Below, piece by piece: positions 406 to 4,119 of a DNA stretch of 24,336 nucleotides; within the stretch, counting starts at the first letter, position 1, and each line of letters begins with the position of its first letter. The DNA lies in the IMG/VR virus record IMGVR_UViG_3300031631_000026, positions 1 through 24,336 of that record; one strand, 5' to 3'. The position numbers and the translations under genes are program-made. This DNA comes from a virus. The notes under the pieces are model-generated. The model worked only from the letters and a program-made list of their open reading frames with translations. It was not told where the DNA came from and did no database searches.

Positions 406-1122
406 TTATTTATTTAATATTTCAAGAGCTTGTTCTCTTAGGTTTACTTTTCCTTCCTTTAATTCTGTGTACAATTCGTTAATTAGATGCTCTCTGCAAG
501 CATTATCTATCTTAAAGTTTAAGGTAGTAGATGAGCCTGCATCATGATTAATAGAACCTCTTACTTTTCTTCTTAATTCTTTACGCTCTTCGGTTGTTAG
601 GTTTATAAATCCATTCGCTGCGAACCATTTGAACTGCATTTCAATACCAGATATTTGAAAAGGATTACTAAATCTATTCTTTGGCTCTTCAAAATTTAAC
701 CACTCTTCATATTTTGCAACCACCACATTCAATACATAATCTCTATGGTCAGCACTCCGATCTGTATTAGCTGAATTGTATTCTATTTGAATGGCTTGCT
801 TTTCTTGAAATAGTTTATTGCTTTTATAACCGTTCTTTTGCTTTCTATTATTCAACCAAGTAAACCAAGTCTTTGGATTTACTGCATATTGATCCCCTGT
901 GCGAACTCCTAATTTGAAAGCACTATCTACATCTTCATAAGACATCGTGCTGAATGAATCTGTTAAATCGTTGCTGAGTATGTTAGCCATTATACTAACA
1001 TCTGCATCGTTCTTGTTTTGGCTTAATTCAAAGAATGTCCTTCTGACTATGTTTCCACAGAAGATTAATAGACCTGGTGTTTGTTCTTTTCCGATTTCCA
1101 TAGCTCTATTTTTTAGTTTCAA
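406..1122 (-). CDS. Uncharacterised replication-region protein (238 aa)
   Basis: This 238-aa protein directly follows the replication initiator gene and overlaps its end. Two starts are possible: ATG at 1122, overlapping the initiator by 17 bases, or the internal ATG at 1101, leaving a short gap. It has no Walker A motif, so it is not a DnaC-type ATPase loader, and no nuclease or zinc motif that I can see. Residues about 55-90 contain AFKLGVRTGDQYAVNPKTWF followed by WLNNRKQK, a Trp-rich basic segment. Later parts are charged and helical. Position suggests a partner of the initiator, such as a non-ATPase helicase loader, but this is inference from context alone. Confidence 0.6.
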   Translation of the reverse strand: MKLKNRAMEIGKEQTPGLLIFCGNIVRRTFFELSQNKNDADVSIMANILSNDLTDSFSTMSYEDVDSAFKLGVRTGDQYAVNPKTWFTWLNNRKQKNGYKSNKLFQEKQAIQIEYNSANTDRSADHRDYVLNVVVAKYEEWLNFEEPKNRFSNPFQISGIEMQFKWFAANGFINLTTEERKELRRKVRGSINHDAGSSTTLNFKIDNACREHLINELYTELKEGKVNLREQALEILNK

Positions 1123-1942
1123 ATACTTTATTCATATCTAAGGCTTTAATTTCTTCTGACTTTTCTCCAAACATCTCAGGAAAGTACTTCTTAGCTAAGC
1201 TGACTGGCTCATTTTTGTTGTTGTAATTAGGTTTTGCAGTTCGCCCCCATTTGCTTGCTGATGCTTTCCATTTCTGCATTTGATTTTTTCCAACCTTCCA
1301 TCCATTACTTTCATAATATTCAAAAAAGTTAATAGCTTCTTTTATATCAAATCCCTTTTCTTTAAAATAGGCTTCTACTTCCTGTAAGTCTTTTGGTATT
1401 TTAGCCTTAATAATCTTTTTAGGTTTAATATCTTTAATTAAAATCTCATCTGAAGGAGGTAGAGAATTTTTATTCTCCTTTTCTTTTATTTCTTTATTAT
1501 TATTATTTATTATTATTTCTTTATTATTATTAATAGTTTTAGCGTTTTGGTAATTGTGCAGTTCGCGTTTCGCTAATGATAGATTTAGCGTTTCGCTAAT
1601 ACTAGTATTTACACATTGTATTATATTGTCATCACAAATAGAGAAATGAACTTTTGCAGGAACACCACGTAAAAAAGTCTTTATCATCCCAGCATCCTCT
1701 AATGTTTTAATACACCTCTTTTGTTTCCTGTATGATAGTGTTGTTACCTCTGTAAGTTGTTGGCTAGTGCAAAAGAAATAATCTTCACCACTTACGTCTA
1801 TTAGCATCCCTCTGCTATAAAAATAACCTTCACGACCTATCAACTCAGTTAAAAGTAAAGAAGGCTCTATACCTACTCTAAGTGCTAATGATTTGTTTAT
1901 TTGCCAAAATGCTGTCTGGCTTAAAAAGTTTCGTGCTTTCAT
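1106..1942 (-). CDS. Phage replication initiator (winged-helix N-terminus, replisome-organiser C-terminus)
   Basis: The 278-aa protein has an N-terminal helix-turn-helix/winged-helix region (about 1-105), beginning with FWQINKSLALRVGIEPSLLL and including SYRKQKRCIKTLEDAGMIKT as the recognition-helix area. A low-complexity Asn/Lys/Glu/Ile linker follows (about 130-165). The C-terminal domain (about 185-245) has FFEYYESNGWKVGKNQMQKW, a motif I associate with phage replisome-organiser proteins (lambda O / DnaD-like role) that bring the helicase to the origin. The linker-coding DNA is AT-rich and is flanked by three 23-bp-spaced repeats, so the origin probably lies inside the gene, as in lambda O. 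The ATG at 1942 is preceded by a roughly 105-base leader. An unknown 238-aa gene follows with overlap. Confidence 0.8.
   Translation of the reverse strand: MKARNFLSQTAFWQINKSLALRVGIEPSLLLTELIGREGYFYSRGMLIDVSGEDYFFCTSQQLTEVTTLSYRKQKRCIKTLEDAGMIKTFLRGVPAKVHFSICDDNIIQCVNTSISETLNLSLAKRELHNYQNAKTINNNKEIIINNNNKEIKEKENKNSLPPSDEILIKDIKPKKIIKAKIPKDLQEVEAYFKEKGFDIKEAINFFEYYESNGWKVGKNQMQKWKASASKWGRTAKPNYNNKNEPVSLAKKYFPEMFGEKSEEIKALDMNKVFETKK
1490..1536. other. AT-only tract, candidate DNA unwinding element
   Basis: This stretch within the initiator gene is almost entirely A and T, made of TTA/ATT-type trinucleotide runs broken by a few C or G. It encodes the Asn/Ile/Lys linker of the initiator. It lies immediately beside the three iteron-like repeats at 1539-1599. 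In lambda, iterons in gene O are followed by an AT-rich region that melts at initiation. The same adjacency here suggests a duplex-unwinding element. The alternative is simple low-complexity drift in a disordered linker. Confidence 0.5.
1539..1599. repeat. Three dyad iterons at 23-bp spacing: candidate phage origin
   Basis: Three 15-bp units share the form TTAGCG-TTT-CGCTAA. They are at 1539-1553 (two mismatches in the right arm), 1562-1576 (one mismatch in the left arm) and 1585-1599 (perfect inverted repeat). Their starts are exactly 23 bp apart, about two helical turns, so a bound protein would lie on one DNA face. Because 23 is not a multiple of three, the copies are read in different frames by the initiator gene (ISETL, LAKRE, YQNAK), so similarity is kept at DNA level and not by the protein. 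This matches the lambda ori design of imperfect palindromic iterons inside O. Initiator binding is inferred. Confidence 0.7.
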
Positions 1943-2350: not shown

Positions 2351-2824
2351 TTAAAATGGTAGGTTATCCTCGCCAACTTCTTTAGCCTTTATTTCATTCC
2401 ACTGCTTGGGTAACTGCACCTCAGAATTACCATTAACAAATGATACAAATCTTTCTGCTGTTTTCAGTACATCTACTTCCGTTGGTTTTAATTGAGGATT
2501 GATAGCATGGAAATCTACTGATGCCTTTAACATAGACTGTCTTACAATCTTGTTCTGTACATCGTCTGACTTACCACCCGAGAAACCTCCTTTAAATCCT
2601 TGTGATTGGTAAACTGGTTTGACTTTTGGAAACTTGCCTCCTGTATATTCATACTCCGTTTCAGCTCCGACCTCGAACTTGTTCTGGTCTTTGTTCTTTC
2701 CTGAGTATTCACCCACATCTCCATTTTGGAATACTACTTCGAATTTGTACATTAGTCCATAGGATCCATCCCATGTACCATTTGCTTGTACACTCATTAC
2801 TTTACTCTTTTTTACTTCTGCCAT
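2351..2824 (-). CDS. SSB-like single-stranded DNA-binding protein (157 aa)
   Basis: The protein ends in EVGEDNLPF, the acidic-plus-hydrophobic tip (compare DDDIPF of E. coli SSB) that SSB proteins use to recruit replication partners. Residues 1-70 alternate strands and glycine (MYKFEVVFQNGDVGEYSG, then EYEYTGGKFPKV), which fits an OB-fold. A Gly/Ser/Lys segment (about 73-88) follows, then a helix with IVRQSMLKASVDF. It would coat single-stranded DNA during phage replication. The gene lies upstream of the HTH and initiator genes, consistent with a replication module. The start at 2824 is preceded by a promoter-like site about 20 bases upstream. Assignment rests on the tail and overall pattern, not on a search. 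Confidence 0.7.
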   Translation of the reverse strand: MAEVKKSKVMSVQANGTWDGSYGLMYKFEVVFQNGDVGEYSGKNKDQNKFEVGAETEYEYTGGKFPKVKPVYQSQGFKGGFSGGKSDDVQNKIVRQSMLKASVDFHAINPQLKPTEVDVLKTAERFVSFVNGNSEVQLPKQWNEIKAKEVGEDNLPF

Positions 2825-4038: not shown

Positions 4039-4070
4039 CAAATATAGTAAATTTATTTTACATATAGCAA
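4039..4070 (-). promoter_or_regulatory. Early promoter, Bacteroidetes type
   Basis: On the minus strand, TTG at 4070-4068 is followed after 21 bases by TATATTTG at 4046-4039. This fits the flavobacterial consensus TTG-N17-23-TAnnTTTG. The start would fall near 4032, giving a leader of about 37 bases before the ATG at 3995. It lies in the 124-base gap between the lysis cassette and the early genes, where an early promoter is expected. Confidence 0.65.
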
Positions 4071-4085
4071 CATATTAAAGTTTAT

Positions 4086-4103
4086 TATAAAATTATTTTT
4101 ATA
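4086..4103. promoter_or_regulatory. AT-only inverted repeat upstream of the early promoter
   Basis: A perfect 7-bp inverted repeat, TATAAAA with TTTTATA separated by four bases, sits 16 bases upstream of the -33 element. It could be an operator or an UP-like element. On the minus strand a T7 run (4112-4106) follows the end of the last lysis gene, without a GC stem, so there is no convincing terminator here. Confidence 0.3.
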
Positions 4104-4119
4104 TATGCAATCAAAAAAA

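Follow-up and report, generated by a model that had tools for sequence, protein, structure and literature searches.

A probable replication origin with 23-bp iterons inside the O-like initiator gene of a Bacteroidota-type phage

In the virus record IMGVR_UViG_3300031631_000026, which was analysed whole (24,336 bp, hereafter the window) and is probably a fragment, positions 1482-1608 are most likely (probability roughly 0.87) a replication origin inside the linker of an initiator gene, where iterons would bind the winged helix of the initiator, an AT tract would open and the helicase would be recruited. The terminase in the window was closest to those of Flavobacterium phage 11b (50%) and Cellulophaga phage phi10:1 (45%), and therefore the label of a Bacteroidetes-type phage, used in the earlier note on this DNA, is reasonable.

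The initiator, its iterons and the AT tract

The following features were found in and around the proposed origin:

1106-1942, minus strand: O-like replication initiator gene, 278 aa (open reading frame; PHROG matches)
1607-1942, minus strand: N-terminal winged-helix domain, residues 1-112 (AlphaFold model, fold matches)
1694-1732, minus strand: putative recognition helix, residues 71-83, YRKQKRCIKTLED (from its place in the predicted model)
1586-1608, minus strand: iteron unit 1, 23 bp, with the perfect dyad 1585-1599
1563-1585, minus strand: iteron unit 2, 23 bp, dyad 1562-1576 with one mismatch (TTCGCGTTTCGCTAA)
1540-1562, minus strand: iteron unit 3, 23 bp, dyad 1539-1553 with two mismatches (TTAGCGTTTTGGTAA)
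1482-1541, no strand assigned: AT tract, proposed DNA unwinding element, coding for the disordered INNNKEIIINNNNKEIK linker (AT content, pLDDT)
1109-1390, minus strand: C-terminal helical region of the initiator, about residues 185-278, exchangeable between phages (identity comparison)

The initiator matched the profiles phrog_678 ("replication initiation O-like", E 4.9e-8) and phrog_428 ("replication initiation protein", E 9.4e-8), and the former was matched by 25 of the 26 aligned members of the initiator family (best E 5.7e-24). No Pfam family was reached by the initiator of the record, the tie to O-like proteins being one of PHROG profile only. In the AlphaFold model, pLDDT was about 90 over residues 21-90, with helices at residues 60-67 and 71-83 and wing strands at 87-92 and 97-102. 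The top fold matches of the N-domain were plasmid Rep N-domains (4pql, 4pt7, 5kbj, and 4pta; Z 10.8-9.6), their lead being narrow, with other winged helices next at Z 9.4, and the sequence identity to them only 15-17%; one plasmid Rep entry among the best matches is titled as a Rep-DNA complex. The winged-helix initiator that had been suggested earlier is thus supported by both the O-like profile phrog_678 and the predicted fold. The C-terminal part was modelled as small and helical at low confidence, and pLDDT was <50 for residues 136-162, a disordered segment matching the AT tract in position.

The first dyad starts at nt 344 of the initiator gene, directly after the DNA-binding domain. Dyad starts at 1539, 1562, and 1585 confirmed an exact 23-bp period, and the repeat reported by Tandem Repeats Finder at 1533-1600 (period 23, 3.0 copies, score 73) had the highest score in the record. 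The earlier note had described three copies of TTAGCG-TTT-CGCTAA at these places; the positions stand, whereas the sequence is perfect only in the copy at 1585-1599. The dyad pattern at no more than three mismatches was found six times in the record versus 7.0 expected, which is no rarer than chance, and the significance of the iterons must therefore come from their clustering and phase.

Synonymous-codon shuffles within the gene (n = 20,000), in which the encoded protein was kept exactly, served as the null for the iterons. A whole-gene repeat test at any lag was swamped by an in-frame 27-bp repeat of the AT tract, and the tests were therefore restricted to the linker or anchored on the units. 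Matches among the three 23-mers amounted to 48/69, versus 30.4 ± 4.0 in the shuffles (reached by 0/20,000), and dyad pairs in the three units to 15/18, versus 10.1 ± 1.4 (reached by 11/20,000). Repeat and dyad jointly were reached by 0/20,000 shuffles, so that the likeness of the copies goes beyond the constraint of the protein, as had been claimed; the copies are indeed read in different codon frames (23 mod 3 = 2). It could still be argued that the repeats reflect the protein, i.e., that a repeated or low-complexity linker peptide yields repeated DNA, since the region codes for a linker and the AT tract encodes low-complexity Asn/Lys/Ile with its in-frame repeat. However, the 23-bp period changes the frame at each copy, the peptide is not repeated, and the signal is lost in shuffles preserving the protein. 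A pure protein-repeat origin of the iterons was rejected by this test, and such an explanation of the region is hardly credible. Conservation extends over the entire 23-mer, made up of an AACTAG-like half and the dyad, and is not confined to the 15-bp dyad.

The stretch 1482-1541, directly 3' of the iterons, has an AT content of 93%, higher than any other 60 bp of the 24-kb record. The earlier description of an AT-only tract was nearly correct, AT-only runs being present at 1493-1518 and 1520-1535 and parted by one C. The in-frame 27-bp direct repeat, which encodes the low-complexity residues, occupies 1489-1536. Next in AT content among the 60-bp stretches of the record comes 4048-4107 (90% AT, AT-only run at 4081-4106), where the minus strand carries no clear gene.

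The 23-bp pitch in relatives and exchange with the N-domain

Relatives were obtained by protein searches of viral contigs, and the DNA that follows their winged-helix domain was inspected directly. Their units were aligned by anchoring at the start of the AT tract, and synonymous shuffles were again the null for each lag. In 31 non-redundant relatives, lag 23 gave 396 versus 174 ± 10 in the shuffles (z 21.9), the next most raised lag being 22 (z 5.4), and 23 was the best lag in 26 of the 31. For eight lineages with <65% N-domain identity, lag 23 had a z of 8.5 (0/300 shuffles). Taken singly, 19 of the 31 relatives reached p 0.05 and 12 fell short; L020, L086, L087, and L098 had no 23-bp repeat above their own synonymous-shuffle null. 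The lag was present too in a Fusobacterium phage relative, and no clear 23-bp repeat was found in the Lactobacillus and Eggerthella phage relatives. Lambda O, included as a positive control, gave lags 20 and 23 at its annotated iterons (p 0.0005). The period is not a product of the protein, as 23 is not divisible by three.

The units of the relatives comprised an AAC[TA][AT]G half and a lineage-specific half, ending ACTATTAATAAnAATAA, with dyad arms that differed between lineages; an AT tract likewise followed the iterons. The dyad was clear at one phase in the clade of the record (z 6.0) and only diffuse elsewhere, weaker than the period. Since the 23-bp lag is kept across lineages while the dyad is diffuse outside this clade, the pitch is the conserved quantity. 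A check proposed in the earlier note, that homologues should keep the iterons while codons drift, thus came out positive, and in a stronger form, the pitch being kept while the dyad arms change.

This pattern also bears on whether the dyads could be hairpins in single-stranded DNA or RNA, for primosome entry or RNA regulation, instead of duplex binding sites. The 6-bp arms around AAA would be compatible with hairpins, and the strand as DNA folded somewhat better than shuffles (z -1.9, 7/200 shuffles as good). However, the predicted best fold pairs arms of different copies without forming three hairpins, and relatives keep the 23-bp pitch with weak or absent dyads, so it is the pitch and not a hairpin that is conserved. 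The pure hairpin reading was rejected on account of this fold and the weak dyads in relatives, and a role of this kind is very improbable.

An exact copy of the 15-mer occurred in 79 stretches of viral contigs, and all but five, which had a related initiator, were without the 23/46-bp array; the 15-mer alone was therefore rejected as a diagnostic mark. Searches for relatives of the initiator returned one partial Fusobacteriales match only from genome contigs and two distant matches only from plasmids, and L053 alone as query matched itself only. In L056 (827-1543) about four units were seen versus two in near kin, the extra pair adding about 15 linker residues; iteron number varies in Stx phages in the same way. 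At the place of the AT tract, L022 has three TAATAATAAAGAA copies, which recall the 13-mers in unwinding elements; as these copies keep the reading frame, the protein could account for them.

Identity between the record and L021 was 67% in the N-domain, 75% in the iterons, and 34% in the C-domain, and the values for L022 were 66%, 75%, and 33%. Compared with L001, it was 64% in the C-domain and 81% in the downstream protein, 48% in the N-domain, and 36% in the iterons. L007 combines an L001-type C-domain with an unrelated HTH domain in front of it, and different repeats occupy the iteron position. Across all pairs, iteron similarity tracked the N-domain (partial rho 0.53, Mantel p 0.002) and not the C-domain (-0.22). 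These identities show that the N-domain and the iterons are exchanged between phages as one module. Since iteron and N-domain DNA adjoin each other, linkage accounts for part of this covariation; the C-domain DNA is also near the iterons, yet without such covariation. In the putative recognition helix, SYRKQ accompanies the record-type dyad, and SYHKQ (L005), TYHKQ (L006), and SYHIQ (L001) accompany other arms, a possible covariation of residues and arms that is a lead and not a test.

The proposed origin and known systems

In ori-lambda, O dimers bind the iterons and the adjoining AT-rich region opens, and the minimal unwinding fragment consists of two iterons plus the AT region (PMC5043065, PMC7466680). 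The lambda-like plan put forward in the earlier note holds for the record. As in phage lambda, the proposed origin is in the initiator gene, with the iterons right after the DNA-binding domain at much the same offset (nt 349 of O in lambda versus nt 344 here), an AT tract 3' of them, imperfect dyads with an A-tract centre, and matches to O-like PHROG families. The iteron spacing is 20/24/23 bp in lambda versus 23/23 bp in the record. Unlike lambda, there are three iterons instead of four, with a rigid 23-bp pitch and another sequence, in a Bacteroidota-type phage, and a relative of lambda P was not detectable.

Initiators of RepA_N plasmids (pSK41 Rep and relatives) combine a winged-helix N-domain with a separate C-domain; their Rep boxes lie midway along rep, the origin-encoded linker is dispensable, and the same kind of N-domain-plus-origin swap was reported for plasmid pPR9 (PMC5703833). 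The initiator studied here shares with them the predicted winged-helix plasmid Rep fold and the central position of the repeats in the gene; however, Pfam RepA_N (PF06970) was unmatched by it and by 25 relatives. The plan is also alike in SPP1 gp38, with oriL in gene 38. Unlike the record, the Vibrio PLE satellite RepA has a noncoding origin with iterons of about 30 bp (PMC8263062). Origins within initiator genes, and the exchange of N-domain plus iterons, are already known from lambda, SPP1, pSK41/pPR9, and PLE co-variation (PMC7466680, PMC6316719, PMC5703833, PMC8263062).

From the present data together with the established work on ori-lambda (PMC5043065, PMC7466680) and RepA_N plasmids (PMC5703833), we infer binding, oligomeric state, melting, and helicase recruitment as follows. 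The N-terminal winged helix of the initiator would bind the three 23-bp iterons, most likely as dimers because the units carry dyads, and the complex would strain and then melt the adjoining AT tract. The replicative helicase would then be recruited by the C-terminal domain together with other proteins, perhaps including the one encoded by the next gene. In annotated phages, related initiators adjoin DnaC-like loaders or a DnaB-like helicase. GC skew is monotonic, with no switch anywhere in the 24-kb record, and gives the placement of the origin no support; a search of Rfam gave no match. As the record is a 24-kb fragment, another origin could lie outside it.

The repeats could instead be sites at which the initiator or another phage regulator acts in regulation (autorepression, roadblock) and not in replication. 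Dyads of about 15 bp resemble ordinary operators and a further small HTH gene (2101-2307) lies just upstream of the initiator, but a site in mid-gene, about 340 bp past the start codon, would be unusual for an operator. In addition, the AT tract is kept 3' of the repeats in relatives, the repeats travel with the initiator's own DNA-binding domain, and known O-like and RepA_N initiators have their origin at this place (PMC7466680, PMC5703833). A regulatory role in place of replication is therefore unlikely.

The part of the literature searched contained no report of such an origin in a Bacteroidota phage. Lambda O, SPP1 gp38, and RepA_N plasmids already exemplify the plan itself, and the strict 23-bp pitch across lineages is a useful extra. 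It is conceivable, at somewhat below even chances, that in a large group of O-like initiators of Bacteroidota-type, Fusobacterium, and uncultured-host phages the pitch is held invariant by protein-protein geometry, while the lineage-specific half is read by a variable recognition helix. If so, origin and initiator specificity could be predicted from sequence and phage compatibility groups could be defined. The fixed pitch and the exchangeable N-domain and iterons extend the rule of modular origin specificity, as in lambda O and RepA_N, to these phages. The segment 1482-1608 is short and testable, and work towards a phage-based replicon in Flavobacterium could naturally begin with it; the record, L021, L001, and L007 form natural pairs for asking which residues read which bases.

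Gene neighbourhood of the initiator

One further gene is of concern for helicase recruitment:

406-1101, minus strand: companion gene, 231 aa, next downstream of the initiator (candidate helicase loader by position only)

Relatives likewise carry the companion gene downstream of the initiator (33-90% identity), and a NP[KR]TW..WLN region of its protein is nearly invariant among them; in L001, a cytosine-methyltransferase-like ORF lies between the two genes. The 231-aa protein had no match in Pfam, NCBIfam, or PDB sequences and no convincing PHROG match, and in the fold search all matches were at Z <5 with no helicase loader among them. A known helicase loader is thus without support from any of these searches, and the companion is a candidate for a new one.

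Upstream of the initiator, a 13-bp stem (AAAAGCCUAUUUC / GAAAUGGGUUUUU in the best fold) that leads into a U tract was found at 1968-2017 on the minus strand, between the HTH gene and the initiator start. It is terminator- or attenuator-like, although its fold energy is not unusual (z -1.1), and was missed by a simple hairpin scan because of its long loop. Further upstream, a 157-aa protein (2351-2824, minus strand) ends in GEDNLPF, an SSB-like tip, and different small proteins ending in GDGMPF are encoded upstream of the initiators of L001 and L021.
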